From Phycisphaerales bacterium (GTDB lineage Bacteria > Planctomycetota > Phycisphaerae > Phycisphaerales > UBA1924), in contig JAFIFZ010000058.1 of the NCBI GenBank assembly GCA_020831775.1, positions 1 through 59,287 of the forward strand: a stretch of 59,287 nt of DNA, given 5' to 3'. Both the position numbers and the translations under genes were made by a program. The notes below the pieces were generated by a model, which was not told where the DNA came from, searched no databases, and was given only the letters and a program-made list of their open reading frames with translations. Below are positions 4,912 to 59,119 of the stretch, piece by piece; position 1 is the first letter of the stretch; each line of letters opens with the position of its first letter.

Positions 4912-4951
4912 CAGAAATCGGCCCTCCCGGGCCGTCAGGGGGGGGTGTTCT

Positions 4952-4998: not shown

Positions 4999-5133
4999 TT
5001 GCCGCTCCGGCGTGCATCGGGACGCAACGGAGCGCTAAAACCCTTTGAATCAAGCGGTTTCTGACGATCGGTCTTTCGGGCCGGTCCTTCGCCGACGATG
5101 CGCAGTTCTGCACCGTCAGGCGCCGAAGTGTGC

Positions 5134-44623: not shown

Positions 44624-44827
44624 GACGGCCCTCCCCTTGCTGCTGACCCCGCTGCCGGCGGGGGGTTGCTCTGTCGTCCGCCGTGCGGCGGATCCGGTCC
44701 TGACGGGCGCTTGTTCCGCGTCGGGCCGGCCGGATTTCGACCCCACGGGCCGGGGCCGGCGGGAGCATCATACCAGCATGGGGAGAATCACGGTTCCTGA
44801 GCGTCCGCCGGTCGTTACCATCGCGTC

Positions 44828-46039
44828 ATGACCGAGACCGACAGACCCGACAGCCGCCGAACCGAACCGACCGCGATCCTCCGGCCCGCGCCGGTGACCT
44901 TGGCGGACCTGACGAGCGACCTGCTCTGGCCGAGGCTGCTGCGTGCGGGGAAACTGGCGTTCAAGGCCGACCGCCTCGCGATCGCCCTGCTGACGGTGCT
45001 GCTGATCGGGGTGATCGGGAGCCTGAACACGCTCTTCGGCGGCCGGTCGTTCATCGGCGGGGTGCTCCTGATTAAGTTCGAGGCGATCGGGGAGTTGCTG
45101 CTTGCGCTGGCGATGCTGGATGTCTCTCGCGCGGGCGACGCGGTGCTTGGGCTGGGCGTTGGCGTGCCGCGCCAGATCGCGTCGGAGTTCCCCGTGAGCG
45201 TGTGGCTTTTGGGGGTGCCGATCGTGGTGGTGTGGGCGATCGGGCTTGGGGCGATCTGCCGCTCGGCGGCGTGCGAGTTCAGCGCTGGGGTCTTCCGCCC
45301 CTGGCCTGAGACGCTGGCGTTTTCGATCCGGCGCGGAGTGATGATGGTTTCGGCGCTGGTGCTGCCTCCGGTGCTTGCGGCGCTGTCGCTGCTGGTCGCG
45401 TGGGCTGTTGGCCTGCTGACCAACCTGCCGGTGATCGAGTATCTGGGGGCGGCGGTGTACCCGATTTCGCTGCTGTTTGTGTTTGCGGCGGTGCTGACCT
45501 TGCTCCTGTATGTGTTCGGCGGGCACATGCTCGTGCCGTCGGTGGCGTGCGAGGGGACGGACGGGATCGATGCGCTGCAGCGCGGGGGGCACTATGTGCT
45601 GCACCGGCCGCTGCGGCTGGCGCTGTACCTGGGCGTGCTCGGGCTGGTCGGGGCGGTGCTCTTGGGGATCGTGTTCTGGCTGGCGTGGGCGGTGCCGGCG
45701 CTGGCGGATGCGCTGCGTCCGGACCCTGCCGGAGCGAGACTGTTCGACGACAGCGCCTTGCTGCGCGGGCCGGAGGCGATCATCGCGTTCTGGTCGAAGA
45801 TCCCCGGCGTGCTGGCGGCGGCGGTCGCGGTGAGCTATTACGCGTGCGCCTCGACTTTGCTCTACCTGGCGATGCGCCAGCAGTGCGACGGGCAGCACTA
45901 CTCGGAGATCTGGTTCGAGGGCGTCAGCGACACGGTGCTGGCCGAGGCGGAGCGCAGCGGCGAACGCCTCAGCGGTCGTCAGCAGGACGGGGACGAGCAA
46001 GATGAGCGGGAACGGGAAGAAGATCGTCGCTCGTCATGA
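44828..46039 (+). CDS. Polytopic membrane protein of unknown function
   Basis: A 403-residue protein with about six hydrophobic segments (LAIALLTVLLIGVIGSL, VWLLGVPIVVVWAIGLGAI, MMVSALVLPPVLAALSLLVA, LYLGVLGLVGAVLLGIVFWL). It shows the layout of large integral membrane proteins repeatedly annotated as hypothetical in planctomycetes. The Asp/Glu/Arg-rich C-terminus (GDEQDEREREEDRRSS) overlaps the convergent truB gene by 71 bases, so either the overlap is real or a shorter protein is made; codon composition in the overlap fits both frames. No enzyme family is recognised. Confidence 0.72.
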   Translation: MTETDRPDSRRTEPTAILRPAPVTLADLTSDLLWPRLLRAGKLAFKADRLAIALLTVLLIGVIGSLNTLFGGRSFIGGVLLIKFEAIGELLLALAMLDVSRAGDAVLGLGVGVPRQIASEFPVSVWLLGVPIVVVWAIGLGAICRSAACEFSAGVFRPWPETLAFSIRRGVMMVSALVLPPVLAALSLLVAWAVGLLTNLPVIEYLGAAVYPISLLFVFAAVLTLLLYVFGGHMLVPSVACEGTDGIDALQRGGHYVLHRPLRLALYLGVLGLVGAVLLGIVFWLAWAVPALADALRPDPAGARLFDDSALLRGPEAIIAFWSKIPGVLAAAVAVSYYACASTLLYLAMRQQCDGQHYSEIWFEGVSDTVLAEAERSGERLSGRQQDGDEQDEREREEDRRSS

Positions 46040-46736
46040 CGCGGGGCAGGTCGTCGAGCTGAACGGCCATCGAGTCGTCGAACGCGCCGACACGGGTGCG
46101 CCGTAACGAGACGAGCACGCCCCCGCCGGTGAGCTCGCGCCCCATGTCGCGGGCGAGGCTGCGGATGTAGACGCCTTTGCCGCTGACGACGCGGAGCGTG
46201 AGCACGGGCCATTCCAGCGAGACGATGTCGATGGCGTCGATGCGGACGGGGCGGGGCTCGGGCTCGATGGTCTCTCCCCGGCGGGCCCGGGCGTAGGAGC
46301 GTTCGCCCCCTATTTTGACGGCAGAGTGGGCGGGCGGTCGCTGCTGGATCGTGCCGATGAAGCGGGCGCAGACTGCATTGATGGTGTCGGTGTTTGGGGG
46401 CGATGCGCCGGGAACGGGGACCGGCTCGCTTTCGAGGTCGTCTGTGGGCGAGGTGGCGGAGAGGTCGATGCCGGCGAGGTATTCCTTCTGGCCATCCATG
46501 ATGGCGTTGCAGAGGGGTGTGGCCTTGCCGACGAGGACGACGAGGACGCCGGTGGCGAGGGGGTCGAGGGTGCCGCCGTGGCCGACTTTGACGCGCTTTG
46601 GGGCGCCTCCTCGGCGGAGGCGTGCGCGGACGCTGGAGCAGACGGTCATCGAGGTCATGGCGTAGGGCTTGTCGATGACGAGGATGCCGCTGAGGGGGGG
46701 GTGGTCTTGCTGGGGGTGTTGGGGGTGTTCGGTCAC
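45969..46736 (-). CDS. truB: tRNA pseudouridine-55 synthase TruB
   Basis: A 255-residue protein starting at a GTG 15 bases after the preceding gene. Motifs are GILVIDKPYAMTSMTV, KVGHGGTLDPLATGVLVVLV with the catalytic Asp, KEYLAGIDLSATSPTDD, RPPAHSAVKIGGERSYARAR and GVYIRSLARDMGREL. It makes pseudouridine 55 in the T loop of tRNAs. The C-terminal PUA-like tail is short. Its 3' end overlaps the convergent membrane-protein gene. Confidence 0.94.
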   Translation of the reverse strand: MTEHPQHPQQDHPPLSGILVIDKPYAMTSMTVCSSVRARLRRGGAPKRVKVGHGGTLDPLATGVLVVLVGKATPLCNAIMDGQKEYLAGIDLSATSPTDDLESEPVPVPGASPPNTDTINAVCARFIGTIQQRPPAHSAVKIGGERSYARARRGETIEPEPRPVRIDAIDIVSLEWPVLTLRVVSGKGVYIRSLARDMGRELTGGGVLVSLRRTRVGAFDDSMAVQLDDLPRVMTSDDLLPVPAHLARPRPADDR

Positions 46737-46751
46737 TGGGGTGCTTTGTTT

Positions 46752-48563
46752 TCAGCGGGGCTGGGCGATGATGAGTTTGACTGACTTGCCGTTGGAGTAG
46801 TTGAAGCCTTTGAGGCGGTCGAGCTCGGTGAGGCGTGGCTCGTGTTCTTTGAAGAGTTGTTCGGTGAGGAGGACGAGGCCGTCGGGGTTGGTGTCGAGCC
46901 AGGCGGTGAGGGCCTGGTCGGAGAGGCGTTCGATGCGGCCTTGGGTGTTGAAGACGAGGCTGTCTTCGCGGAAGCCTGCCGCGGCGAGGGGGCGGTTTTT
47001 GCCGGCGTCGATCGCGAGCATGGCGGAGGCGGCGCGGTCGCTGATCCAGACGAATGACGAGCCGGGGATGACCACGCCGGCGAGGGCGATCATCGCGAGA
47101 GCGCCCGCGGCGATCGAACGGCGCTGGGCGCGCATGAAGCGGTCGTTTGCCATGGCCTTGGCGGTCAGAACGAGGGCGGCGGCGCAGAGCGCGACGAGGG
47201 CGATGCCCGCGATGGCGGTTGGCAAGTTGGTGATGCCTCCGGCGATGATGAGCAGGATGAGCGGGGCGAAGACGCCGATGACGGCACCGATCACCAGCCA
47301 CGCGTTGAGCCCGAAGCGGATGGCGCCCTTGCGGAGGTCGCCCATCGCGCCCGAGGCCGCGGCGAAGACGGCGCGGGCGGAGATCAACGCCAGCGCGGGG
47401 TACAGCGGCATGGTGTAGTGCGGGAGCTTGGTCGCGACGAGTTCGAAGACGATCCAGGCGGGGAGCGTCCAGGCGATGAGGAAGAGCTCGGCTTCACGCC
47501 CGGACCACGGGCCGATGATGTGCCTGAAGAAGCGGCGGAGGCGCCCGGGAGTCGAGAGGTCGGGGTTGAGCTCGGGACGGCGGTCGATGAAGGCTCGTTT
47601 CCATGCGCGCACAAACGCGAGGCCGGTGAGCATCGAGCCGGGCCAGAAGAGGACGGGCATGAGGATGAGGTGGTAGCCGGGCGGGCCCCAGTGGCCTTCT
47701 TTGGGTGCGCCCGATCGTCCGAGGACTTCGTCGTAGACGATCGAGGCGTAGTTTGACGCCCCCACTTCGCGCATCACCAGGAGCACCCATGGCAGGACCA
47801 TGAGGGCGACGATCGCGACGCCGATAAGGGGGCGTGTTGCGCCGATCCAGCGCCATCTGCCGCGGACGATGCAGAGCATCAGGGCGCAGAGGACGACGAG
47901 CATCGGGGTGATCGGGCCCTTGGTCAGGACGCCTGCGCCGATCGCCAGCCAGAGGGCGATGCTGAAGTGCAGCGGGACTTTGCGCCCGCTTGAGACGCGC
48001 ATCCAGATCGCCGCCAGCGCCCACATGGCGCCGAGCGTGCAGGTGAGCAGGAGTTGGTCGGAGCGACCTTGCCTCGCCTCCCACGCGATGACGGGGGCGA
48101 TCGCGAGCATCGTTGCGGCGAGCGCTCCGATGCCGTTGGCGTGTCTGCCCGGGAAGAGCAGCACGCCGATCCGCCAGACTATCAGCACCGAGAGCGTCGC
48201 GAAGAGCGCCGAGGGGAGGCGGTACATCCACGCGGCGTCGCGCTCGGTGTTCGCGCCGGTGAAGATCGCGGCGCTGGCTGCCTGGGCCCAGTAGATCGCG
48301 GGGGGTTTGTTGAGTCTTGGGTCGTCCTGCACGCGCGGGATGACCCAGCCCTCGACGCTCTGCGATTCGAGCATCTGGCGGCTGGCCTGGATGAACCGGG
48401 CCTCGTCGCGGTCGACGACCGGCATCACGAACAGGCCGGGCAGGTACACTGCCACGCACAGCAGCACCAGCGCCGGGCCGACCAGGGCCGGGCTGAGCAC
48501 GGTGCGGCGGCGGCCTGAGCCGCGCTCACCCTGATTTTGCCGACCGAACGCAGGAAGACGCAT
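46752..48563 (-). CDS. GT39/ArnT-like membrane glycosyltransferase
   Basis: A 603-residue polytopic protein with about 12 hydrophobic segments. The first loop carries VVDRDEARFIQASRQMLES and DDPRLNKPPAIYWAQA, matching the DE-A-ry and K-PP-YW motifs of the dolichyl-phosphate-mannose/ArnT transferases. These enzymes use polyprenyl-phosphate sugars to glycosylate lipid A, proteins or other envelope targets. Acceptor and donor are unknown. Its ATG overlaps the ATG of the divergent PAP2 gene (shared CATG at 48561-48564), and no ribosome site precedes it, so an internal start is possible. truB lies 15 bases downstream. Confidence 0.85.
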   Translation of the reverse strand: MRLPAFGRQNQGERGSGRRRTVLSPALVGPALVLLCVAVYLPGLFVMPVVDRDEARFIQASRQMLESQSVEGWVIPRVQDDPRLNKPPAIYWAQAASAAIFTGANTERDAAWMYRLPSALFATLSVLIVWRIGVLLFPGRHANGIGALAATMLAIAPVIAWEARQGRSDQLLLTCTLGAMWALAAIWMRVSSGRKVPLHFSIALWLAIGAGVLTKGPITPMLVVLCALMLCIVRGRWRWIGATRPLIGVAIVALMVLPWVLLVMREVGASNYASIVYDEVLGRSGAPKEGHWGPPGYHLILMPVLFWPGSMLTGLAFVRAWKRAFIDRRPELNPDLSTPGRLRRFFRHIIGPWSGREAELFLIAWTLPAWIVFELVATKLPHYTMPLYPALALISARAVFAAASGAMGDLRKGAIRFGLNAWLVIGAVIGVFAPLILLIIAGGITNLPTAIAGIALVALCAAALVLTAKAMANDRFMRAQRRSIAAGALAMIALAGVVIPGSSFVWISDRAASAMLAIDAGKNRPLAAAGFREDSLVFNTQGRIERLSDQALTAWLDTNPDGLVLLTEQLFKEHEPRLTELDRLKGFNYSNGKSVKLIIAQPR

Positions 48564-49296
48564 GGACGCCGACTATACCCCGGAGGAGACCGACCACCCC
48601 GACCTTGCCCCGGAGGGCTCGCCCCCCAAGATCGGTTGGAAGGGGATGCTGGTGGTGCTGGGCGTCGCGGGGCTGCTGATCCCGATGGACGCGATGATCG
48701 CCCACGGCGCCCGCTGGGCTCGCAGCGGCCTCGGCGGCGACATCCGGCGCGAGCTCGAAATGCTCCAGCAGTACGGGGCGATCGGCTCCTTGGTGATCAT
48801 CGCGGCGGTCGTGTGGCTGGCGGACCCGGAGCGGCGGGCGAGGCTGGCGGACCTGGCCGCGGTCGCCGCGATCAACGGGCTGACGCTGCTCTTCCTGAAG
48901 ATGGCGATCGGTCGCCCTCGCCCAAGGTTTCTGCCCGACGACCCCGGGGCGGCGACGACCTTCCTGACCCCCTTTGGGACCTATCCGCTGGGCGACCCGC
49001 CGGTCGAGCGTCACGCGTGGGAGGTTTGGGGTGGGATCAGCAGCCATCTGTGGTCGATGCCCTCGAACCACACGGCCGCGGCCGCGGCCCTTAGCGTCTG
49101 GCTGATGACGGTCTACCCGAGGCTGCGACCGCTGGCGTGGACGATGATCGGTGTGGTGGCGTTCTGCCGCGTGATTCTGGGGGCGCACTACGCGAGCGAT
49201 GTGGTGGTCGGGGCGGGGGTCGGGGTGCTTGTGGCCTCGTGGGTGATGCACCGGGGGATCGGGGCGGGTGTGCTGGAGCGGTTCAGCAAGGGCTGA
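48562..49296 (+). CDS. PAP2-family membrane phosphatase
   Basis: A 244-residue protein with several membrane segments. The three phosphatase motifs are present: KMAIGRPRPRF (K-x6-RP), MPSNHTAAAAALS (PSGH-like with Asn in place of Gly) and CRVILGAHYASDVVVGA (SR-x5-H-x3-D). Such enzymes dephosphorylate undecaprenyl pyrophosphate, phosphatidate or lipid A. Pairing with the divergent polyprenyl-phosphate-sugar transferase fits a role in lipid-carrier recycling, which is inference. AGGAAG precedes the start. Confidence 0.88.
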   Translation: MDADYTPEETDHPDLAPEGSPPKIGWKGMLVVLGVAGLLIPMDAMIAHGARWARSGLGGDIRRELEMLQQYGAIGSLVIIAAVVWLADPERRARLADLAAVAAINGLTLLFLKMAIGRPRPRFLPDDPGAATTFLTPFGTYPLGDPPVERHAWEVWGGISSHLWSMPSNHTAAAAALSVWLMTVYPRLRPLAWTMIGVVAFCRVILGAHYASDVVVGAGVGVLVASWVMHRGIGAGVLERFSKG

Positions 49297-49326
49297 GGGC
49301 CCCGCTGGGCTCGACTGGACTGAACT

Positions 49327-49343
49327 GGGGCCCGCTGGGCCCC
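49327..49343 (+). terminator. Possible hairpin after the PAP2 gene
   Basis: GGGGCCC-GCT-GGGCCCC forms a perfect 7-bp stem with a 3-base loop between PAP2 and the tRNA gene. Similar GGCCCCGCTGGGC words lie just upstream (49298-49310). There is no T run, so termination is uncertain. Confidence 0.3.
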
Positions 49344-49412
49344 GCTGTGGGCCGAGGGGCGAACCCCCGCGACGCCCCCGCGGAGGCGGCCTAAAGTCGG
49401 CCGACAGATCCG

Positions 49413-49499
49413 GGAGACGTGGCCGAGCGGTTTAAGGCGCACGACTGGAAATCGTGTTGAGACGCAAGTCTCTCGGGGGTTCGAATCCCCCCGTCTCCG
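49413..49499 (+). tRNA. tRNA-Ser (GGA anticodon)
   Basis: The 87-base sequence has acceptor strands GGAGACG/CGTCTCC, a D arm (GGCCGAGCGGTTTAAGGC), anticodon stem CACGA/TCGTG with loop CTGGAAA (anticodon GGA), a long class-II variable arm (TTGAGACGCAAGTCTCTC) and T arm GGGGG-TTCGAAT-CCCCC. The discriminator base is G as expected for serine. CCA is not encoded. It reads UCC/UCU codons. It borders an accessory region, as serine tRNA genes often do. Confidence 0.97.
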
Positions 49500-49765
49500 T
49501 TAGCACTCCGCGGCATTCGTTCGCGATGCTCGCGTTTCGCTGAGGGTTGGGCGGTCTTCGGCGATCGCAGGCCCATCGAGCCGGCCATGAGGCCGCAGAG
49601 AACTTTCCGTATCAAGCAGTCGAAGTGTTCGTGATCTGGCCGAGGGTTTGCCCCGTCAGGCCCGAGAGCGCCAGCTCCTCCACGGCCGGGGCGGGCGTGG
49701 GCGTATCGATTTGGCTTCGATGATTTGGGAAGAGGCCTCGGGCAGGTACGCCGCATGCGATCGGG
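49500..49765. other. Gap after tRNA-Ser without a supported gene
   Basis: A 266-base stretch between the tRNA and the first accessory gene. Minus-strand frames here read antisense through the tRNA (GDGGIRTPERLAS), a known artefact and also the tail of integrases that overlap their target tRNA. No catalytic integrase sequence is present, so only a possible attachment-site remnant can be suggested. Confidence 0.35.
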
Positions 49766-50389
49766 TCATTTGGGCAGACCGCCGTCGATGGGTTCGTCGA
49801 TGACAGCCATAGGGTAGTGCAGCACATCGCTGAACTCGTTTTTGTCTATGAGGTGAACAAGCTCGGGGGTCAGGATGAGGCCACAATGGACATTAAGCTG
49901 GTAAACCCTCTGGCTGCGGATGGAATCGCTTGTGAAATACTCATGAGGCTTTTTGGACCCTTTGAACCGCAAAGAGATCTTGCCGCAGCCAGGACAGACC
50001 TTGTACCGGCATCCCGCTGAAGACCGGCGTATCGGGCACAGATCGACTGGGGTGTAGAGCGTAACATAGTTGGCGCAGAGGTCGCCGCTTCGGAGATAGC
50101 AGGCGCCCCGGATCGATCCTTCGAGATAGGGGGAAAGAATGTCAAACAAGCTTCTCTTCATGATGAGCGCGAGGTGGCAGGCGAGGAATGTCGCCGACGG
50201 CTCTTTGCGCAGTTCGATATCGATCGGATCGCCGTAGAATCTGGGGCGGACCGACCCGCACCCGTCGTGGCATTCCATCCTCGCCTGCACAATCATATCT
50301 TTCCACAGCGGGCTGATGTAATCGGTGTTAGGCTCTTCCCAGTCGAGATAGATTACATGATTGATCTTGGTCATGGCGATTGATCTCAT
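49766..50389 (-). CDS. Hypothetical CxxC-containing protein, 207 aa
   Basis: The protein starts at 50389 (or at the ATG at 50374, MTKINHVIYLDWEE). It has no signal peptide or membrane segment. A single CxxC element (YKVCPGCGKISLRF) lies near residue 137, and the C-terminus has LTPELVHLIDKNEFSDVL. Codon use is less GC-biased than in surrounding genes, a sign of recent acquisition. I do not recognise a family. Size, solubility and position next to another orphan protein and an RHS-like relic would suit an immunity-type protein, which is speculative. Confidence 0.6.
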   Translation of the reverse strand: MRSIAMTKINHVIYLDWEEPNTDYISPLWKDMIVQARMECHDGCGSVRPRFYGDPIDIELRKEPSATFLACHLALIMKRSLFDILSPYLEGSIRGACYLRSGDLCANYVTLYTPVDLCPIRRSSAGCRYKVCPGCGKISLRFKGSKKPHEYFTSDSIRSQRVYQLNVHCGLILTPELVHLIDKNEFSDVLHYPMAVIDEPIDGGLPK

Positions 50390-50442
50390 GCGAGCATCTC
50401 AATTCGACGCAATTGGGTACAATCAGCAAACACGGGAGAAGG

Positions 50443-51339
50443 CTAGCAGTCGATTACAACATTGGTTCGAAACGACAAGCAATCGGCGACATCCGCAAGC
50501 TCACTGAGCACCGCGCCTGCAATGGTGATACAGGTGGATCTTGACTTGACGCCTTGCGTAGCATTGAGCTCGACGGTCACATACAGGTCTGGCGCGATGC
50601 CGTTGTGTCCACACGATACATTCTGTCTCAGTATTTCGATCGCAGACTTTATTTCATTCTCGGCTTCGGCTCCGGTGTGGTCATGGACGGGCGTTCTGTC
50701 TATACACAGTGAGTACGCTCGCTGAACACGGTTGTGGCAGGGACTGCGATTGTCTTGAGGTGAATATTTAAGAAGGTGATTCCGACTGTACTTGAGCGCC
50801 GCAGAATCAGACTGCAGATAAGTCGAAACGGAAAAAACCGGGTTGCCGCCAATTGGACGGCTGTGCTTGACAGGATTTGAGAGTTGAGACTTCTTTGTCG
50901 CATAGCATGGATAGGCCTCTGTGGCCATCGGCTCATACGAATCCGGGTTGAGAAAGAAGAGAGTAATATCGTCAAACATGTTTGAGAACTGCTTTGCCTC
51001 TTTCGCACCGAGGGTGGCGCACAATGTTCGGCGAGGATCAAAGTAAAAATAAATCGCAAGACTTGGCGTGGCGCCACCGAGCGCACATTTCAACCGATCA
51101 ATGCGGGCGGCATCCAGTTTGGGGGCAACGGCATGCGCGATAACATCAAGCTTGGTGTTGCCGGCTATCGGCCTTGGCCCGTCGGTCCAGTCCCATGAAC
51201 ACATTGGAGAGTGACTGTATAGGGAGCGTGTGTACCGAGTTTTTGTAGGCGAGAACCCGATTGTCTCAGAGATTTCCTTCTCCGGTCTATGAGATCTAAT
51301 GTTTACAAAATACTCCCACCTTTCAGTCACTTGCTCCAT
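50443..51339 (-). CDS. Hypothetical protein, possibly DUF4279-like, 298 aa
   Basis: A 298-residue soluble protein. The N-terminus (EYFVNIRSHRPEKEISETIG then FSPTKTRYTRS) and the end (DLYVTVELNATQGVKSRSTC, ISGAVL-like strand and a closing beta strand) resemble the arrangement of DUF4279 proteins, whose domain starts with a beta strand, a helix and a G-x-x-P-T turn. That resemblance is weak and from memory. The base composition is distinctly lower in GC than the chromosome, suggesting horizontal transfer. It precedes the 207-aa gene on the same strand. Confidence 0.55.
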   Translation of the reverse strand: MEQVTERWEYFVNIRSHRPEKEISETIGFSPTKTRYTRSLYSHSPMCSWDWTDGPRPIAGNTKLDVIAHAVAPKLDAARIDRLKCALGGATPSLAIYFYFDPRRTLCATLGAKEAKQFSNMFDDITLFFLNPDSYEPMATEAYPCYATKKSQLSNPVKHSRPIGGNPVFSVSTYLQSDSAALKYSRNHLLKYSPQDNRSPCHNRVQRAYSLCIDRTPVHDHTGAEAENEIKSAIEILRQNVSCGHNGIAPDLYVTVELNATQGVKSRSTCITIAGAVLSELADVADCLSFRTNVVIDC

Positions 51340-51430
51340 GGGCTTTCCTTGATGCTACTGGTCTCGCTTCATTTGGAGGACATCACGCTTCTGACCAAGT
51401 GGCTTCGGGGCCGCTTGCGGCCACACAGGG

Positions 51431-52597
51431 CTACTGCGCAAGCTTCAGCCGCTTTCTGCTTTCGATCACCTCATCCCCGCGCAGCTGCAATACATGCAGA
51501 TCGCGACCCGACAGTATCGCATATCGATCGTTTCCGTCGCTGTCGACACACGCCATTATATTGTAGGTGATGTTGTTCCTGAAGGAGAATGCGTCAAGCA
51601 CCGTCCCCGAGCGCGAGTAGACGACGATGTCGTTGCCATTGTTCGTCGCAATGACAAACGAGTCGCGGCCCGCAACAAGTCTGTCGACAACACCATCGTC
51701 CGGGATCGAAAGCGGAACGAATGCCTCATCTTCCTCGAATGCGTAGCCGTACCTGGTTTCCCAAAGAGCTCGCCCGTCAACAAACGCCAGTAACTTGGGC
51801 CTCTCCGAGACATCCACCGAGCGGCGACTATCCCACGCGATCTCCTGCGAACGAACACCGCCCTGCAGCGCATCGAGAGGTAACACATATTCAAAGATGT
51901 GCTTCACATGGTCTTGGAAATCCTGCTCGCTTTGGTACGCGACCCAAACCCGCCCGTTTCTGTCGATGTCGATGCGTCCAGCTGGAAGCGTGCCATGGCC
52001 AACGCGCTCGATCTCCCCGGAGTCGCGGATGCCGAACAGCTCGAAGTCATGCGCCCGATCAAAGATCTGGGACTCTGACTGATATACGGCCGAACGAGCG
52101 ATCGCATAGCCCGTGTATCCCTGTTGATTCGGCCAGACGCTGATGCTGCTGCACACATAGAGCAGACCCGCGAGATCGTCGTCGAAGTCGACTTCGACGC
52201 CCGTGGTTGGAGCCCACTCCGGACTGTCGGCGCCGGTGGGTTCCCAAAGCTGCACGGCTTTCGAGTCGCCGGCAAGAACCTTGCTCGCGCTCATCGCCGC
52301 GGGAGGCATACGCATATTGTCCGGCAAACCGGGCGCATGCGAGACTGTCGCGTCCGAAACAGATAAGAGCCACCGCATCCCCATGTCGGACGGATGGGTT
52401 GACATCACAACAAACACGCAAGCGTTGCCCTTTGCGGTTCTCGCCTCGGTCACAAGAAGTTCTTGGGGCGGCCGCTCTTGTCCGCACCCAGACAACACCA
52501 TCGCCACAATGACGCCGCAAGCCGCGATGAAGTTTCTCGAAGTTGCGGTTGTCCACACAGTGCAATCAAACTGCATGCAATACCCCTGTTGCTGCAA
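51431..52597 (-). CDS. Hypothetical lipoprotein, beta-propeller-like
   Basis: A 388-residue protein with a lipobox (VIVAMVLSGCGQ); MQFDCTVWTT (52576) is an alternative start. The body has repeated strand patterns with DIDRNGRVWVAYQ, LLAFVDGRALWETRYGYAF, DSFVIATNNGNDIVVYSRSG and CVDSDGNDRYAILSGRDLHV, suggesting an NHL/propeller-type fold. It would sit on the inner face of the outer membrane or outside. No enzymatic signature is seen. It shares the accessory strip between tRNA-Ser and hpd. Confidence 0.65.
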   Translation of the reverse strand: MQQQGYCMQFDCTVWTTATSRNFIAACGVIVAMVLSGCGQERPPQELLVTEARTAKGNACVFVVMSTHPSDMGMRWLLSVSDATVSHAPGLPDNMRMPPAAMSASKVLAGDSKAVQLWEPTGADSPEWAPTTGVEVDFDDDLAGLLYVCSSISVWPNQQGYTGYAIARSAVYQSESQIFDRAHDFELFGIRDSGEIERVGHGTLPAGRIDIDRNGRVWVAYQSEQDFQDHVKHIFEYVLPLDALQGGVRSQEIAWDSRRSVDVSERPKLLAFVDGRALWETRYGYAFEEDEAFVPLSIPDDGVVDRLVAGRDSFVIATNNGNDIVVYSRSGTVLDAFSFRNNITYNIMACVDSDGNDRYAILSGRDLHVLQLRGDEVIESRKRLKLAQ

Positions 52598-52674
52598 GTC
52601 TTTCCATCAGTACCTGCGGCAGCATGCTGCGAACTCCCGCTCGCCGGCCCGCCCGACGAACGACTCCGTGCCGC

Positions 52675-52974
52675 TCAGCAGCGCAGGCACACCCATCGCC
52701 CGCCGCCCGATCTGTCGGGGTCTGGGTGGATGACGCTGTCAATGTACGAGTAGCCGCCGTAGCCCGCAAGCCCGGCGTTGTGATGCACGAAGACCTCCTT
52801 CGGGTCCTCGTCTGCAGCACGGAAGACGGCGACGACCCTCCAGCGGTCATCATAACAGAACAAGAACACCGGGTCGTTCTCATCGACCACGCCGTCGGGG
52901 TCGCCATGGGGATGACGGAGGCTAGCGACGCCGCGGTCCGCAAACGCGGCATCGCCGCGCCGCTCAAGAACCCC
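52675..52974 (-). pseudogene. RHS-repeat-like protein fragment (relic)
   Basis: The frame directly after the DUF3185 stop codon reads through GDPDGVVDENDPVFLFCYDD, RWRVVAVFRAADEDPKEVFV and HHNAGLAGYGGYSYIDSVIH before breaking off. The order YDxRWRxVAxF, then PKExFVxHxAG, then GGxSYIDSV resembles the repeat unit of large planctomycetal RHS/YD proteins. There is no start signal (only an internal GTG at 52890) and the homology stops after about 100 codons, so it is a truncated remnant. RHS proteins carry C-terminal toxins, which makes the orphan genes downstream interesting. The call is from recalled similarity. Confidence 0.5.
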
Positions 52975-53190
52975 TCAGCCGCGGAGCCTGGGCCTGATGG
53001 CCACGAGGCCGATCCCGACGACGGACAGGATCGCGCCCAGAACAATGAACCACATGGTTCTGTCGGTGAGATTGCCCGTGAAGAACTTGCTCATGCGATC
53101 CCCGAACGAGTCGGCCGCGTTGATGCCGATCACGAGAAGCGCGATGCCGACGACGATCATGACCAGCCCTGCGATGGCTTGAGCCTTCAT
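52975..53190 (-). CDS. DUF3185-type small membrane protein
   Basis: A 71-residue protein with GGAGGG before its ATG. Two membrane segments (IAGLVMIVVGIALLVIGINA and WFIVLGAILSVVGIGLVAI) flank a loop DSFGDRMSKFFTGNLTDRTM, the pattern of DUF3185. The family is widespread in Proteobacteria and Planctomycetes and has no assigned function; members are often near stress-related small genes. It follows the DUF3309-like gene by 24 bases in the same direction. Confidence 0.8.
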   Translation of the reverse strand: MKAQAIAGLVMIVVGIALLVIGINAADSFGDRMSKFFTGNLTDRTMWFIVLGAILSVVGIGLVAIRPRLRG

Positions 53191-53214
53191 TGAATCCCTC
53201 CGATGTGTTCGGGA

Positions 53215-53379
53215 TCAGAACCCGCGGGGCAGATGGCCCAGGAGCAGCAGAATGATGATGATCAGGAGCACGACTCCGAGGATCCCGCTCGGGAAGTAGC
53301 CCCACTTGCGGCTGTGGCCCCAGGTCGGCAGTGCTCCGACCAAGAGAAGGAGAATCACAATTAGAACGAGCCAACCCAT
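53215..53379 (-). CDS. DUF3309-type small membrane protein, 54 aa
   Basis: The ATG at 53377-53379 with AAAGG upstream opens a 54-residue frame: MGWLVLIVILLLLVGALPTW, then GHSRKWGYFPSG, then a second hydrophobic stretch GVVLLIIIILLLLG. The LPxWxxSxxWGYxPSGxxG centre is diagnostic of DUF3309. It forms a two-gene unit with the DUF3185-type gene 24 bases downstream, and both encode tiny inner membrane proteins of unknown, possibly stress-linked, role. Confidence 0.82.
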   Translation of the reverse strand: MGWLVLIVILLLLVGALPTWGHSRKWGYFPSGILGVVLLIIIILLLLGHLPRGF

Positions 53380-53929
53380 TGGTACCCTTTCGGTGTCGGT
53401 GCGGAGTCCGCGACCGGCCTAGAGAACAGATCGCTGCGCCGGGCGTGCCGGCCGTCGTCATGAGGGCGGCCGTGTTTTTGCTTCATGGCTGCAGACTTTC
53501 CGTTCGGATCAGTCGTCCGTCTGCCCCGCGGCGTTCGGGCGTTTGCGTTCGCGTCGTTGCGCCCGCCACGGCTCTGATGTGACCCTGTGACTGCGACGGA
53601 TCCCGTGACCATTAGATCATCGGGCGTCGTGCCGCAAGAGCAATCAGGCGATCACCTTAGACCGTGCGTCTCATGCCACCGAGTTTGCGTTTCTGCACGA
53701 GGAACTGCCGCTCGCAAGACCTGCTTTGCGATGGACGAAGCTTCGTTCGGATCCTCGCCGTGATCGTGGAAGGCGGTGACCGCGCGCCGGCGGCCGCCAG
53801 AACAAAACCAGAACGGCTGGCCGTCTTTGTCGACCGCCTTTGGGCTCGCCCGGCGGAGGCGGGGCCGCGTAGTGTGCGTGTGGACTGAATGGGGCGGCGG
53901 TTTTCTCTTCAGAAAGGTGGAGGTGAGGC
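53380..53929. other. Intergenic region with a coding-like fragment but no supported gene
   Basis: 550 bases upstream of the lipoprotein gene. On the minus strand a frame ending at 53652 has a coding-like end (AVTAFHDHGEDPNEASSIAK, QVLRAAVPRAETQTRW) without a start signal of its own and no family I can name. The rest shows no RNA gene or repeat. Confidence 0.4.
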
Positions 53930-54586
53930 ATGGTGCGGGCAAGGCGGAATCGGGTGCGGTCTTTGGGGTTGCGGGCGGGGGCGGCGTGCGGGCTCGGCGC
54001 CGCGGCCCTGCTGCTGGCGTCTGGCTGCGGCGAGGACGAGGCGCAGGTGCACGAGGTTCCGGAGGGGGTTGAGACAATCGCCGAGGCGGACCGGCCCCAG
54101 ACCGAGCAACGCGAGACGCGCGAGCCGACGACGGGGGCGCCGCCGGAGGGGGCCGGCGCGGCGGCGACGGAGCAGCCCTGGAGCGTGCCGGACTCGTGGA
54201 GCGAGTCGGCGGATGTGCCGTCGATGCGGCTGGCGACCTTGGTGATCGAGGACGAGAGCGGGCCTGTTGAGGTTGCGATCTCGCGCTTTGCGGGCGATGT
54301 TGGCGGGATGCTCGCGAATGTGAACCGCTGGCGCGGGCAGGTCGGGCTTGCGCCGGTGACCGAGGCGGAGCTCGACGGGCTGATTGAGCCGTTCCAGACG
54401 CCGGGCTTTGACGGCGCGCTGTTGCACATCGAGGGCGAGCGTCAGCACATGCTGGTGGGGAGCCTGTATGAGACGGGCGCGGACCGGACATGGTTTGTGC
54501 GCGTGCTCGCCGAGCCGGAGGTCGCGGCGCGCGTGAAGGACGAGGTTTTCGCGTTTTCGCGTTCGTTTTCGGCTGACGGCGGGTGA
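53930..54586 (+). CDS. Hypothetical lipoprotein
   Basis: AGGTGGAGGTGAGGC immediately precedes the ATG. The 218-residue protein has a basic leader and lipobox (ALLLASGCGEDE), an acidic linker rich in Glu and Pro (about 35-90), and a compact C-terminal domain with VPSMRLATLVIEDESGPVEV and GGMLANVNRWRGQVGLAPVT. This domain recurs in planctomycetal lipoproteins without a known function; the alternation of strands and helices gives no enzyme motif. It is transcribed alone, convergent with the paralogous pair downstream. Confidence 0.75.
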   Translation: MVRARRNRVRSLGLRAGAACGLGAAALLLASGCGEDEAQVHEVPEGVETIAEADRPQTEQRETREPTTGAPPEGAGAAATEQPWSVPDSWSESADVPSMRLATLVIEDESGPVEVAISRFAGDVGGMLANVNRWRGQVGLAPVTEAELDGLIEPFQTPGFDGALLHIEGERQHMLVGSLYETGADRTWFVRVLAEPEVAARVKDEVFAFSRSFSADGG

Positions 54587-54668
54587 TGCGATCGTGCTGG
54601 TGCGGGCTGGAGCGTCGACAGTCTTTGTACACGCCGGATCGATTGTTGCCGAAGCAACATCGCCGGCT

Positions 54669-55424
54669 CTACCACGCATCTCCCGTTCGGGCGTCTCTGG
54701 CGTACTGGGCGAGCCAGCGGGGCGGCTCGGACTCTTTGAGGAACCGATCGATCGCGGCCTGGAGCCTCGCGATCCTCGGCTTCGGCCGACGGAGCACGCA
54801 GATCGCATTCCCGAGCTTGTACAACGCACTGATCCGGCACGCGCTTGTTTGGCAGCGTGTCAGGATCTCTTCAAACACCCACACGCCCCGTTCGAAGGCG
54901 TCGTCCGGACCTTCGAGCGGAAGCACGGCGTAGCACGAGCAATCGTTCTCCCAGAGCCCGTAGATCTCTCGGTCGAATGCGGGGAACTGCTCGAGCGCTT
55001 CTGAGATCTTGCCCTTGCCGAAGCCGGCATCCTTCGGACCCTTGCCGCAGACCCGATCGAGCAAGTCTGTGTAGAGCGTGACGATGCTCCGGATGCATCG
55101 GTCCCGCGCCGCCTCCTGCACCCGCTCATCCAGCACGCGGTAGAAGCAGTACGACTGGATGCCGAAGAGGAAGCTGATCCCCGCGGCGATCTGGGCGTCG
55201 GAGAATCGCTCTGCGATCATGCCCGGCGATTCGAACAGCTTGGTCATGTGCTTGGTGAGCAGGGCAGGATCGATCGTTAGCACGAACTCAAACCGGCGCG
55301 ATTGCCTCGGCTGATCTTCGATGCTGCCAGCGAAGTCTTCGGCACCGCGCGTGAAACAGTACTTGAACCAGGCGTGGAACGCCGGCCTGCTGTACTGCTC
55401 AAAATAGACGGGCTCCTCGAACAC
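54669..55424 (-). CDS. Unknown protein of the CFTRG family, paralogue A
   Basis: A 251-residue soluble, mainly helical protein starting at a GTG. It shares with the neighbour at 55458 the blocks FHAWFKYCFTRGAEDF, KLFESPGMIAERFSDAQIAA and RCIRSIVTLYTDLLDRVCGK, each at matching positions, so the two are clear paralogues. Conserved Cys residues in CFTRG and RCQTSACRIS are notable. I do not recognise the family. A third, truncated copy lies at 56931. Repeated tandem copies in an accessory region are typical of immunity or lineage-specific families. Confidence 0.7.
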   Translation of the reverse strand: MFEEPVYFEQYSRPAFHAWFKYCFTRGAEDFAGSIEDQPRQSRRFEFVLTIDPALLTKHMTKLFESPGMIAERFSDAQIAAGISFLFGIQSYCFYRVLDERVQEAARDRCIRSIVTLYTDLLDRVCGKGPKDAGFGKGKISEALEQFPAFDREIYGLWENDCSCYAVLPLEGPDDAFERGVWVFEEILTRCQTSACRISALYKLGNAICVLRRPKPRIARLQAAIDRFLKESEPPRWLAQYARDARTGDAW

Positions 55425-55457
55425 GCCGCCATCATAACGCGGGACCGGCGGGCTGGC

Positions 55458-56150
55458 CTAACGCATCCGCAGCGTTTCCTCTGCCGCGGCGCGGGCTTCT
55501 TGCGGGACGCCGTCGCGCCGGAGCATGGCTTTCACCAGCCCATGCAGCCTCCGTCGTCGGCCGCTCGTCCGTGGGTTTGCCAGCAAGCCTTCGAGGGCGC
55601 CCTCGACGCCGCTGAGCAGGCAGGCGCCGCTGCGGCAGCGCTCCAGCACGCCACCGATCACGAACAGCCCGGCCTCGAACTCCGCGTCCGTCGCGTCCTG
55701 CGGCATCGCGATCGCGTCGTAGCCGCTGTCCCAGATGTCGATCACGGCCTGCTCGATAGAGTCGGGCGTCCGCTCGCTCTCGCCTTCGGCCTCGCGCCGG
55801 AGGCAGACGGGGTCGAACAGGTCGGTGAAGACCGTCAGCGACGCGCGGACGCAGCGGTCGATGAGCTCGGGCGGCGCCTCGGCCTTCATGCCGATGAAGT
55901 ACTGCGAAGGCGTGCCGAAGATGTAGCGCACGCCGTCAGCGAGCTGGGCGTTGGTGAAGCGGGCGGCGAGGACGGCCGGGGACTCGAAGAGCCTGAGGAT
56001 GTGTCCGCCGATCGCGGGCGAGTAGCCCTCGAAACGGGCGAAGCGCTCGTCGGCGGCGTCGGGGCTCTGGCCATGGAAGTCGGCGAAGCCGCGGGTGAAG
56101 CAGTATTCGAGCCAGGCTTCGAAGGTGGGTGTTTCTTTGCGGGTGGTCAT
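55458..56150 (-). CDS. Unknown protein of the CFTRG family, paralogue B
   Basis: A 230-residue protein starting with ATG. Shared blocks with paralogue A are FEAWLEYCFTRGFADF, RLFESPAVLAARFTNAQLAD and RCVRASLTVFTDLFDPVC; RCRSGACLLSGVEGALEGLL corresponds to RCQTSACRISALYKLGNAIC of A. The C-terminal 40 residues have diverged. It ends 34 bases before paralogue A on the same strand, probably one operon. Function unknown. Confidence 0.72.
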   Translation of the reverse strand: MTTRKETPTFEAWLEYCFTRGFADFHGQSPDAADERFARFEGYSPAIGGHILRLFESPAVLAARFTNAQLADGVRYIFGTPSQYFIGMKAEAPPELIDRCVRASLTVFTDLFDPVCLRREAEGESERTPDSIEQAVIDIWDSGYDAIAMPQDATDAEFEAGLFVIGGVLERCRSGACLLSGVEGALEGLLANPRTSGRRRRLHGLVKAMLRRDGVPQEARAAAEETLRMR

Positions 56151-56177
56151 GCAAGGCGTTTCCCGACCGGGGCCGAT

Positions 56178-56510
56178 CTACGCGAGGGTGAGTGGCCTGC
56201 CCTGATAGGTTACCCCGAACCCGGAGATGGGTTCGAGCTCCGGCTGCGTAAGAAGATCGCTCAGGACCGAAGCGACTCGGTCATCCGAGAACGACTTGTG
56301 GTACCGGACCTCGATGCGGCCGGGCGAGAGCATCGCCGCGAGCGCGTCACCCTGGTAGTTGTCGCGGTAGCGGATGCCCGGCGCAGACTGGTCGCGGTGC
56401 TCCTTTCTGACGGAGAAGAGGATCGCGCCGGAGCCGTTGAAGACCATCTTCGCCGAGAAGTGGTCTTGTGTGACGAGTTCGAGGATGTTGTCGAGGTCGA
56501 AGATGCGCAT
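56178..56510 (-). CDS. Hypothetical protein downstream of orphan antitoxin, 110 aa
   Basis: The ATG at 56508-56510 is preferred to a TTG at 56528. The product (MRIFDLDNILELVTQDHFSA to FGVTYQGRPLTLA) has alternating strands and helices, no signal and no motif I can name. It begins 24 bases after the antitoxin stop, so it is probably co-transcribed and may be a third element of that module. Confidence 0.6.
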   Translation of the reverse strand: MRIFDLDNILELVTQDHFSAKMVFNGSGAILFSVRKEHRDQSAPGIRYRDNYQGDALAAMLSPGRIEVRYHKSFSDDRVASVLSDLLTQPELEPISGFGVTYQGRPLTLA

Positions 56511-56979: not shown

Positions 56980-57080
56980 TTAAGATTGGGGCTGGGGCAT
57001 AGGAAGCCATCGAGGCAGCGGGTGAAGCAGTCATGGAACCACTCGCCTAACGAGGGCCGCCATGGAGATCTACTTATCAC
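56931..57080 (-). pseudogene. Third CFTRG-family copy, truncated N-terminal fragment
   Basis: From a GTG at 57078-57080 the frame reads ISRSPWRPSLGEWFHDCFTR then CLDGFL, matching AWFKYCFTRGAEDF and AWLEYCFTRGFADF of the two intact paralogues. The homology ends near 57000 and the frame then runs through a short non-homologous joint and the toxin remnant in another frame, stopping after 49 codons. It is a gene remnant produced by the same deletion that removed the toxin. Confidence 0.65.
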
Positions 57081-57136
57081 AATGAAGGAATTTCCATACT
57101 GGTTTTATATCGCACAGACACCGCCAAGCCGCCCAC

Positions 57137-57937
57137 CTATACTTTCTCGGCTTCATGATAGAGCCGCCAGTGTTCGCCGGCCATACTTGCATGGGAATCT
57201 ACATCATCCGGCCCGAACGATCGCCTCCAACAGTAAACACTTTCGTGCAAACCCTGCAAGAAATCACGGAATCCAAGAGCTCTTTCAGTCCAGAGGCCAC
57301 CACTTTTTATAGCCGCATCCTTGCCAACGGGTACCATGTGAGTCACTTCATGTAGCGGCTCAAAGTGTTCACGGTAATAAAGCTCGATCGGATTATCCCC
57401 ATTCTCAATTCCCCACGTATTGTAGAATAGAGTTGGATCGTAACCTCCATCACGATCGTGCTTCGCGAGTTCACGGATCACGGTCATCATGTTCGGTGAC
57501 TTTCCCGGACAGGCATCAAGCTTGTAATCGTCAATAAACCTGTCAAACTCAGGGCGACACGATCCCTCTACTGGGGACGAAGAAATTGCGGCAAAACGTT
57601 TTGCCAAACGATCTCGGGACTTCTTCGCCTCTATTACGATCGCATAATCTCTTTCAGGCTTCTGTACAGACCAGAGCACCCGAAGCGAACTCTCCAACAG
57701 CGGCCGCACCGAAAAAGCGAGTGGATAGTACTTGCCCTCACTGGCAACTTGAATCGCTTCAGCCATCGCCGTGCGATAAACCTGATAGCAAATCCCTCGC
57801 AAGGCTGCCACGGTAACCGGATAATGCTTTGACGCGAACCAAGGCTCGCGCTCTGGCACCGTCTCGGGGAGTTCGCCAAACCCGGTACACACCGCATCCA
57901 ATTTCTGCTGAAAGATCCTTTGGTCTTCGGAGTTCAT
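57137..57937 (-). CDS. Hypothetical protein abutting hpd, 266 aa
   Basis: The ATG at 57935-57937 follows the hpd stop codon (TAG) without a base between, so re-initiation is likely. The 266-residue soluble helical protein contains SVRPLLESSLRVLWSVQKPE and AKKSRDRLAKRFAAI, reminiscent of the helical HEPN-like DUF5677 or AbiV types, but I cannot place it firmly. Its base composition is much lower in GC than hpd, so it was probably acquired and lodged behind hpd. The C-terminal part (LHEVTHMVPVGKDAAIKSGG) is unassigned. Confidence 0.68.
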   Translation of the reverse strand: MNSEDQRIFQQKLDAVCTGFGELPETVPEREPWFASKHYPVTVAALRGICYQVYRTAMAEAIQVASEGKYYPLAFSVRPLLESSLRVLWSVQKPERDYAIVIEAKKSRDRLAKRFAAISSSPVEGSCRPEFDRFIDDYKLDACPGKSPNMMTVIRELAKHDRDGGYDPTLFYNTWGIENGDNPIELYYREHFEPLHEVTHMVPVGKDAAIKSGGLWTERALGFRDFLQGLHESVYCWRRSFGPDDVDSHASMAGEHWRLYHEAEKV

Positions 57938-59119
57938 CTACAGGTTCCCGCGGCGGTCCTGTTCCTTCTCCAGCGCCTCGAAGAGGGCCTTGAAGTTGCC
58001 CTTGCCGAAGCTCTGGCTGCCGCGGCGGCAGATGATCTCGAAGAAGAGGGTCGGGCGGTCCTGCAGGGGCTTGGTGAAGAGCTGGAGGAGGTAGCCCTCG
58101 TCGTCGGCGTCGACGAGGACGCCGAGGTCGCGGATCTTCTCGTGGTCTTCCTTGACCTCCCAGCCCAAGGCGCTGACGCGGTCCCACACCTCGTCGTAGT
58201 AGGTGTCGGGGATCTGCAGGAAGTCGACGCCGCGCCCGCGGAGCTCGGCGACCGAGTGCAGTTCGTCGTCGGTTCTGAGGGCGAGGTGCTGCACGCCGGG
58301 GGTCATGTCGTGCCACTCGAGGTATTCGAGGATCTGGCTCTTCTTCTTGCCCTGGGCGGGCTCGTTGATGGGCATCTTGATGAGGTTGTTGCCCGAGGCC
58401 ATCACCTTGCTCATGAGGGCGGAGTGCTCGGTCGAGATGTCCTGGTCGTCGAAGTGCTTGAACATCTTGAACTCGAGGACATCCTCGTACCACTTCACCC
58501 AGTGGTTCATCTTGCCCTCTTCGACATTGCCGACGCAGTGGTCGACATACTTCAAGCCGCAGGGGTGCTTGGCGTTGTAGTCGTTGAGGGCGAAGGGGCC
58601 GAAGGAACGGAACTTCGGTGCGAACGCCTCGCCCTTCTTCAGGCGTTCCAGCGCGTAAGCGCCCTTGCGGCTGACGAACGAGTGGACGGCTCGCCCATAC
58701 GCCTTGATGCCGGCCATGGTGACGCTGCCGCTCTCGTCGGCGTAGGTCACCGGCTCGTACGCGGCCTCGCCACCGTTGGAGACGGCCCGCTCGAAGGCGG
58801 CCTCGGCGTCGAAGACGGTCATGGCGATGTCCTTGACGCCGTCGCCGAAACGCCGGACTTCCTCCTGCGCCGGGTGGTCGGCCGAGAGGCCGGTGGTCAG
58901 CAGCAGGCGGATGTTGCCCTGGGTGAGCAGGTACGAGGCCTCGTCGCGGCTGCCGGTGGTCAGGTCGGCGACCTGGTCGACCTTGAAGCCGAAGGTGTGG
59001 GCGTAGAAGTAGGCGGCCTGCTTGGCGTTGCCGACATAGAACCGGACATGGTCCACATCGATCAGGCTCAGCGGATCGGTCGCGGTCTCGCGGCTGGTGC
59101 TGGTCGAGGCGGTGGTCAT
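57938..59119 (-). CDS. hpd: 4-Hydroxyphenylpyruvate dioxygenase
   Basis: The ATG at 59117-59119 has GGAGAG eight bases upstream; a TTG two codons earlier is less likely. The 393-residue enzyme has two vicinal-oxygen-chelate domains. The Fe(II) ligands fall in GLKYVDHCVGNVEEG, TPGVQHLALRTDD and TLFFEIICRRGSQSFGKGNF. Residues NLIKMPINEPAQGKKKSQIL and the C-terminal gate helix FGKGNFKALFEALEKEQ are typical. It converts 4-hydroxyphenylpyruvate to homogentisate in tyrosine catabolism. No hmgA or fah gene is visible to the edge of the window. Confidence 0.96.
   Translation of the reverse strand: MTTASTSTSRETATDPLSLIDVDHVRFYVGNAKQAAYFYAHTFGFKVDQVADLTTGSRDEASYLLTQGNIRLLLTTGLSADHPAQEEVRRFGDGVKDIAMTVFDAEAAFERAVSNGGEAAYEPVTYADESGSVTMAGIKAYGRAVHSFVSRKGAYALERLKKGEAFAPKFRSFGPFALNDYNAKHPCGLKYVDHCVGNVEEGKMNHWVKWYEDVLEFKMFKHFDDQDISTEHSALMSKVMASGNNLIKMPINEPAQGKKKSQILEYLEWHDMTPGVQHLALRTDDELHSVAELRGRGVDFLQIPDTYYDEVWDRVSALGWEVKEDHEKIRDLGVLVDADDEGYLLQLFTKPLQDRPTLFFEIICRRGSQSFGKGNFKALFEALEKEQDRRGNL

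Follow-up and report, generated by a model that had tools for sequence, protein, structure and literature searches.

What remains beyond the tRNA-Ser gene of the window, the whole 59,287-nucleotide stretch of Phycisphaerales bacterium DNA that was analysed, and do the genes found there share an origin with the fragment of RHS sequence beside them? The tRNA-Ser(GGA) gene lies at 49413-49499 on the plus strand (ARAGORN; Rfam RF00005, 61 bits). Beyond it, the minus strand carries three intact low-GC genes, designated A (49766-50389), B (50443-51339) and C (51431-52576), and then an adjoining open frame (52675-52974, also minus), which is closed by a stop and holds an RHS scrap, R2. The sequence-only reading had taken this strip for the decayed 3' end of an RHS/polymorphic-toxin locus followed by immunity genes. 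The homology of the scrap to RHS genes supports this view, and the strip probably represents the 3' remnant of an RHS polymorphic-toxin locus that has lost its core and toxin tip and has kept putative immunity genes.

The RHS profile matches the open frame over 65 residues (E 1.5e-30), which confirms the RHS-like relic proposed for 52675-52974, with the correction that the RHS-derived part spans 52698-52905 only; for the remainder of the frame no RHS DNA alignment was obtained. These 208 bp form a gap-free alignment with the beginning of an RHS 3' cassette of 518 aa in congener G001, with 180 of 208 positions identical (87%). Of 60 other related genomes, 31 contain a match to the 99-aa frame of R2 at E <= 0.1, and the best match (83% identity, E 9.6e-35) lies inside an open 573-aa frame of a congener. 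R2 retains about 65 RHS residues and then meets a stop, and neither the TIGR03696 core nor the variable toxin tip is found in it. Judged from these alignments, R2 is a 5'-truncated orphan RHS cassette. Next to it on the minus strand are genes for two small membrane proteins, DUF3185 (52975-53190; Pfam PF11381, E 3.1e-18) and DUF3309 (53215-53379; Pfam PF11752, E 2.2e-19), and a second, older scrap, R1 (53694-53850), in the same orientation as R2. In R1, 123 of 163 aligned positions are identical to the G001 cassette (75%, 6 gaps); its decay has gone so far that the RHS protein profile misses it, and it is also found in congener G002. R1, R2 and the G001 cassette share one start point, at the RHS residues GDPDGVVD. 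A gene for a 218-aa predicted lipoprotein (53930-54586, plus strand) borders on RHS pieces in each of the three congeners, and its identity in G001 and G002 is 93-96%. From this gene through DUF3309 and DUF3185 into R2, G002 runs collinear with the window (91% DNA identity, 1717/1883), and in G001 the longer RHS cassette, complete with an RHS core (TIGR03696, 53.4 bits, above cut-off), stands beside the same lipoprotein gene. The RHS cassettes of both G001 and G002 break off at contig ends.

Cores are common among the relatives of this species. An RHS core is present in 32 of 40 other relatives, and the taxonomic family holds 49 RHS-core matches in 25 genomes, about two per genome. The assembly of the present genome (95% complete) yields no RHS-core match, and a core in an unassembled gap is possible because the assembly consists of 84 contigs and because G002 gives no core either, although RHS sequence is present in it. 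We propose that orphan RHS cassettes starting at GDPDGVVD would once have stood at this strip, every one of them carrying a toxin tip together with its immunity gene. A deletion would then have taken the part from just past the common start through the core and the tip, leaving the scrap of about 65 residues, and the downstream genes A, B and C would have stayed intact. Retained after the loss of their toxins, they would shield the cell from RHS toxins of neighbouring kin. A, B, C and the scrap may or may not share a cassette of origin.

The evidence for an immunity function is strongest for gene A. It encodes a protein of 207 aa, which had been described as a CxxC protein; two cysteine pairs are present, the second of which is CxxC as stated, and the first is CxxxC. 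Among 19 aligned members of the A family (A1/A5), C40, C44 and C132 are invariant and C135 is at least 90% conserved. At least 18 further members occur, spread over 15 or more of the 162 other genomes of the taxonomic family, both counts being lower bounds since the best 18 candidates at most were scored per genome. In a phylum-wide draw, among the best 7 candidates scored per genome, A was found only in this genome. Four weak matches, in G042, G071, G098 and G161, were set aside, as they are not matched by the A profile. Seventeen A-family loci were collected, three of which end at contig ends, leaving 14 that are informative. An RHS-type gene lies just 5' of the A-family gene in nine of these 14, and the proposal that A is a candidate immunity protein is therefore well supported. 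The spacing is 2 bp in G183 and 6 bp in G612; the RHS gene is adjacent to or overlaps the A-family gene in G608, G616, G646, G034-C55 and G031; a SUKH gene stands between the two in G186, and in G622 they are about 0.86 kb apart. At a tenth locus (G034-C179), the A-family gene lies beside Imm11.

The RHS calls at these loci differ in strength. Curated RHS models score above cut-off in G646, G034-C55, G031 and G622, reach 32.4 bits against a cut-off of 32.5 in G608, remain below it in G183, G186 and G612, and give no match in G616. For G183, G612 and G616, where the calls are weaker, homology was detected to the RHS frames of G034 and G646, which the models do support (best E 1.5e-33, 3.8e-23 and 3.8e-53, respectively), and in all three the match to the G646 frame extends into the tip. 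By eye, eight of the nine tips next to A-family genes are xHH/HNH nuclease-like. Pfam supports this for the G186 tip (WHH) and finds no nuclease in the seven others; the ninth, in G622, does not resemble xHH. In G186, the partner of the toxin may be the SUKH gene instead of A-family genes. Gene A is best read as a putative orphan immunity gene against xHH/HNH RHS nucleases. With its two cysteine pairs, the immunity protein most likely binds metal, and it would bind and block an HNH/EndoVII-type (xHH) nuclease tip.

An alternative explanation sees in A, B and C accessory genes without a common history that gathered at a variable spot next to tRNA-Ser, and takes the RHS scrap beside them to be independent. 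The sequence after the tRNA does vary among relatives, with a recombinase-like gene (recognised by eye) in G004, and for neither B nor C is there a homologue linked to RHS. Moreover, four A-family loci, in G607, in congener G001 and twice in G215, are adjoined neither by RHS nor by a recognised immunity gene. When the five A-family loci without RHS were searched by tblastn with eight RHS frames, four gave no match at E <= 1e-4, and in the fifth (L131, in G607) the match was confined to residues 120-573 of the long G646 frame, a part remote from the RHS repeats, and lay about 6 kb from the A-family gene. This explanation is nevertheless unlikely, given that the A family is linked with RHS genes at nine of 14 informative loci, that neither a repeat of the tRNA end nor an integrase was recognised, and that G015 carries an RHS locus at this site. 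The left flank (45969-49296), consisting of truB (minus), a gene for a 603-aa membrane glycosyltransferase-like protein (minus) and a PAP2-type gene (plus), keeps its order up to tRNA-Ser(GGA) in G004, G006 and G022, and in the 3 kb examined of G010 the last two flank genes and the tRNA are seen. The 3' end of the tRNA occurs once in the whole window, with up to 3 mismatches allowed, and no integrase was recognised by eye among the ORFs of at least 60 aa at 46000-56500. The hypothesis of a tRNA-integrated island was consequently rejected, and tRNA-Ser marks an edge of conserved synteny, not a demonstrated integration site. The glycosyltransferase-PAP2-tRNA-Ser site of G015, which was examined because RHS is present there, has an RHS locus after it, on the same strand; its tRNA is tRNA-Ser(CGA), and other ORFs separate the tRNA from the RHS genes. 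At the three sites chosen through the PAP2 gene (G004, G006 and G022) no RHS was found.

It is also conceivable, though improbable, that A, B and C have functions other than immunity, C for instance being an envelope lipoprotein and A a zinc-ribbon nucleic-acid protein. The A-family profile gives weak matches to solved structures, mostly to bL32 (best E 0.19) and one to a GATA-type factor, and C belongs to no known family in Pfam. Against this stand the patchy, RHS-adjacent distribution of the A family and the rarity of B, for which one weak match was obtained among 100 other relatives. No relevant model of Pfam or NCBIfam matches the A family. PF09535 (Gmx_para_CXXCG) was considered for A and rejected at E <= 1; it matches none of A and its 18 relatives at E <= 0.1 and nothing in the genome itself. 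In hhalign comparisons of A with the PF09535 member L066, the value was 10% with 6 rows and 39% with 19 rows, and 6 of 2000 shuffles scored as high in the shuffle control. AlphaFold models were poor (pLDDT 50 and 36) and unfit for a fold search, and the PADLOC, solved-structure and plasmid searches returned nothing useful.

Gene B encodes a soluble protein of 298 aa without a detectable family, and its position suggests that it is a third immunity candidate. Its earlier description as DUF4279-like (PF14106) did not hold: Pfam and hhalign both spoke against the assignment, as did a model built from five sequences and controlled by shuffling and leave-one-out. Whole B scored 0.6 bits in this model (47 of 2000 shuffles as high) and its N-terminal half 1.9 bits (16 of 2000), compared with 26-50 bits for left-out DUF4279 members; the C-terminal half was scoreless, so the printed p-value is void. 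No relatives of B were found in 200 other genomes of the order, in 72,556 plasmids or in a genome_contigs pattern scan. The halves of B align at 21%, a value obtained with no control, and B is therefore not called a repeat protein.

Gene C, the first gene after the RHS scrap, encodes a predicted lipoprotein of about 381 aa from an ATG start; translation may instead begin at a TTG at 52597. The lipoprotein assignment stems from a lipobox, LSGC, read by eye, and the NCBIfam lipoprotein model gives E 0.017, which is below its cut-off. The protein is possibly a beta-propeller. Weak matches occur among 200 other genomes of the order in G128 (E 0.001, two stops) and G043 (E 0.004). Hand-picked secreted genes follow some RHS frames in relatives, and C fits this pattern of a secreted next gene, which by analogy is suggestive of an immunity role; C would then probably guard the envelope against another tip. 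Its best blastp match in a set of four such RHS-adjacent secreted proteins has E 0.003 (G005), and tblastn found no C homologue in RHS loci at E <= 1.

Least probable of all is that the scrap serves as a recombination target for a new toxin tip from an RHS gene, with A-B-C as live polyimmunity cargo: the start shared with the G001 cassette and the placement of RHS pieces at rearranged borders in three congeners would fit it, but the assembly offers no RHS core as a partner, R2 soon ends in a stop, and R1 has decayed beyond recognition by the profile.

Read as a decayed locus with retained immunity genes, the strip is of a kind already known, namely orphan RHS cassettes and immunity arrays left by lost toxins. 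RHS orphan cassettes with toxin/immunity pairs (for example PMC3150448 and PMC3967940) are likewise 5'-truncated 3' pieces with a common start, more than one per site and small genes downstream; the present strip differs in lacking core and tip, in an assembly without a detected RHS core. In the Vibrio cholerae T6SS, part of PMC5361080 reports orphan immunity arrays of displaced effectors, where immunity-type genes also outlast a lost or replaced toxin gene, whereas here the cassettes are RHS, the host is a Phycisphaerales bacterium and the immunity genes are candidates. A section of PMC8163844 places an AHH-nuclease toxin before a gene matching Imm43, PF09535 and DUF1629; like the PF09535/Imm43/Imm11 group, the A family has two cysteine pairs, of which the first is CxxxC in A, and it is set apart by the profile comparisons given above. 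DUF4279 appears as an RHS immunity domain in part of PMC13304343, and B resembles it in a short matching motif near the N terminus, although its scores fall far below those of true members. Literature searches found nothing linking double-CXXCG with immunity, or Phycisphaer-, Rhs and toxin, and only PMC3482391 joined immunity protein, CXXC, HNH and polymorphic toxin. Judged from Pfam, NCBIfam and these searches, the A family appears to be undescribed. It thus offers candidate immunity proteins that the scanned curated models do not name, together with a partner toxin class, and test pairs made of an RHS tip and the adjacent A-family gene. Tentatively, the A family may constitute an undescribed metal-binding immunity superfamily for xHH/HNH RHS tips in this Phycisphaerales family, in a species that would have lost all its RHS toxins and kept a minimal polyimmunity island. 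If so, the species would be disarmed yet still protected. A genome with RHS scraps, intact downstream genes and no detected core also bears on the question whether cells retain orphan immunity genes as a defence against kin.

Base composition agrees with the expectation of lower-GC genes on one strand past tRNA-Ser, which the ORF calls also confirmed. The GC content is 0.546 in A, 0.512 in B and 0.580 in C (the span of C being measured one codon late), compared with a mean of 0.673 (sd 0.026, minimum 0.626) in 30 mechanically picked ORFs of at least 200 aa left of 49,300. The same pattern is seen downstream of RHS frames in relatives: of 42 frames, 33 have a higher GC content in the RHS body than in the 900 bp behind it (Wilcoxon p 6e-6).

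The low-GC strip of genes beyond tRNA-Ser is best read as a decayed orphan RHS cassette with candidate immunity genes persisting downstream of it. In this scheme the orphan cassette would have decayed, and the immunity genes lying downstream of it would have been retained. Genes A (49766-50389, 207 aa), B (50443-51339, 298 aa) and C (51431-52576, about 381 aa, a predicted lipoprotein) are all encoded on the minus strand, with 53 bp between A and B, 91 bp between B and C, and 98 bp between the start of C and the stop of the relic (open frame 52675-52974, minus strand). Their GC content is 0.546, 0.512 and 0.580, respectively, compared with 0.673 (sd 0.026, n=30) in the long ORFs to the left, which agrees with the lower GC that the sequence-only reading had ascribed to A and B. 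None of the three gave a Pfam or NCBIfam match above cut-off.

The host genome (3.55 Mb, 84 contigs, 95% complete), of which the window is one whole contig, has Phycisphaerales MAGs as its close relatives. The order truB, 603-aa membrane glycosyltransferase-like gene, PAP2-type gene and tRNA-Ser(GGA) is kept in three of them (G004, G006 and G022); from a fourth, G010, 3 kb covering the last two flank genes (glycosyltransferase-like and PAP2-type) and the tRNA were fetched. The sequence beyond tRNA-Ser differs in each of the four, and therefore conserved synteny ends at this tRNA. RHS sequence was absent from the stretches fetched beside it in all four, and no repeat of its 3' end was found within the window. 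ARAGORN also predicts tRNA-Thr and tRNA-Gly at 4930-4999 and 44648-44734 (plus strand), which Rfam does not report at its gathering score and which are possibly false.

The proposed RHS-like nature of the relic was borne out. Searched against 60 other related genomes, its frame finds matches in 31 (E <= 0.1), and 52698-52905 aligns without gaps, at 87% DNA identity, to a 518-aa RHS cassette of the congener G001, the RHS-associated core of which scores above the curated cut-off. The 218-aa lipoprotein gene (53930-54586, plus strand) adjoins both this cassette and the scraps in the window. Five long RHS frames from relatives have the relic's conserved GLxGxGGxSYID piece 409-474 residues ahead of their C-terminal end. 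Collinearity with the window extends in the second congener, G002, from the lipoprotein gene across DUF3309 (53215-53379) and DUF3185 (52975-53190) and on into the RHS sequence, at 91% identity over 1,883 aligned positions, and the contig stops shortly afterwards. A more decayed RHS scrap in the same orientation, R1 (53694-53850), is present in the window and in G002 and has the same starting base as the relic in alignments to the G001 cassette, so that the DUF3309-DUF3185 pair is flanked by two direct RHS repeats. In G001 this pair lies on contig C56, not on that of the 518-aa cassette, together with what looks by eye like an RHS scrap, between a 93% relative of the window gene p230 and a paralogue 47% like p251. 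Recombination between RHS pieces is a likely cause of this rearranged setting. The window genes p251 and p230 are tandem paralogues (54669-55424 and 55458-56150, minus strand) without a Pfam match above cut-off. Further right, 57001-58000 has a GC content of 0.524 and no convincing ORF, and precedes a 4-hydroxyphenylpyruvate-dioxygenase-like gene (by eye).

A profile of the A family, built from a six-row alignment, was searched in 162 other genomes of the taxonomic family and revealed at least 18 further members in at least 15 of them. When left out in turn, the first six members scored 66-111 bits and no scored shuffle (298-397 of 500) was as high, a slightly lenient test since the alignment had been built from all six. 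When 19 members are aligned, no variation is seen at C40, C44 or C132, and C135 is conserved at 90% or more; gene A has CxxxC as its first cysteine pair, where many of the others have CxxC. The 18 members occupy 17 loci, three of which (G148, G017, G006) are cut within about 0.5 kb upstream and uninformative. An RHS-type gene lies just upstream in 9 of the 14 informative loci. Above cut-off are RHS repeats in G646 (57.5 bits) and G034-C55 (82.3 bits), and an RHS core in G031 (37.6 bits, with PT-HINT) and G622 (32.8 bits, with an RHS repeat); the core in G608 scored 32.4 bits against a cut-off of 32.5. In G183 and G612 the RHS model scores are sub-threshold and in G616 the upstream gene has no model hit, yet all three genes are homologous to the G034 or G646 RHS frames (best E 1.5e-33, 3.8e-23 and 3.8e-53, respectively), and their tips look interrelated because the match to G646 extends into the toxin tip. 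Of the intact loci, G186 (L042, 8166-11934) is the closest parallel to the window: an RHS gene with a sub-threshold core and a WHH/colicin-DNase tip above cut-off is followed in turn by a SUKH gene, two A-family genes, another ORF bearing paired cysteines (hhalign 43%, not a clear member) and tRNA-Ala. By eye, an xHH or HNH-like motif is present in 8 of the 9 tips, the G186 tip alone being named by Pfam. In the other five informative loci (G034-C179, G607, G001 and two in G215) neither the profile nor a tblastn search using eight RHS frames detected RHS; in G034-C179 the A-family gene stands beside Imm11. None of the scanned models names the A family, which is the useful addition and offers a testable partner class.

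Gene C looks like a member of the class of secreted or lipoprotein-like genes that come next after RHS in some relatives. GC drops from the RHS body to the 900 bp downstream of the frame in 33 of 42 RHS frames (p 6e-6; 40 from relatives and two from host contig C84, L008 and one of L063 being the same place), most loci having been fetched for holding RHS and five frames with <600 bp of room left out. Often, no more than 30 bp separate the frame from the following ORF on the same strand. Secreted or lipoprotein-like examples, picked by eye, occur in G008 (359 aa), G036 (384 aa), G015 (426 aa), G026 (250 aa) and G005 (408 aa, PQQ/beta-propeller match, E 8e-7); C has no detectable homology to these five. 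The G005 ORF stands behind an RHS frame (L055, contig C69, 1960-5754) whose tip has a match to phospholipase A2 models that falls just short of the cut-off (E 4e-8).

For gene B, no relative was found in 200 other genomes of the order, in 72,556 plasmids or by a pattern scan of genome contigs, and the sole match among 100 other relatives was weak (E 0.005). Its proposed DUF4279-like label failed: a short DUF4279-like motif is present in the first half, yet this half scores 1.9 bits versus 26-50 for true members. DUF4279 aside, the sequence-only interpretation was right in substance.

The locus is ordinary for polymorphic-toxin biology. Gmx_para_CXXCG is linked to myxobacterial SitI proteins. 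A search of the SitA paper's main text (PMC5562445) did not turn up the term CXXCG. For a Bodo saltans endosymbiont, PMC8163844 reports an AHH-nuclease toxin and, after it, a gene with matches to Imm43, Gmx_para_CXXCG and DUF1629, an arrangement that agrees with a paired-cysteine protein facing an xHH nuclease. Zhang et al. use the term polyimmunity loci for immunity genes in tandem, which may guard against non-kin toxins (PMC3482391), and in Vibrio cholerae arrays of old immunity genes are reported to remain after effector replacement (PMC5361080). A predicted DUF4279 immunity gene is described beside an Rhs-Ntox33 toxin in Salmonella (PMC13304343).

The RHS core had no match in the host assembly and matched in 32 of 40 other relatives, a result for which assembly gaps are a caveat, because G002 (79% complete) also lacks a core match yet has RHS sequence at a contig end. 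Two RHS fragments lie at the end of host contig C84 (L058, 50000-64416; positions 11499-14417 of L058), interspersed with or followed by an ankyrin-repeat gene and an ORF for a membrane protein. Host contig C7 was rejected as a further remnant, its match being weak (E 0.014) and its ORFs not RHS-like by eye. In the related genome G031 (L054, C5:62000-80000), two inverted RHS frames enclose a transposase-like gene (by eye).
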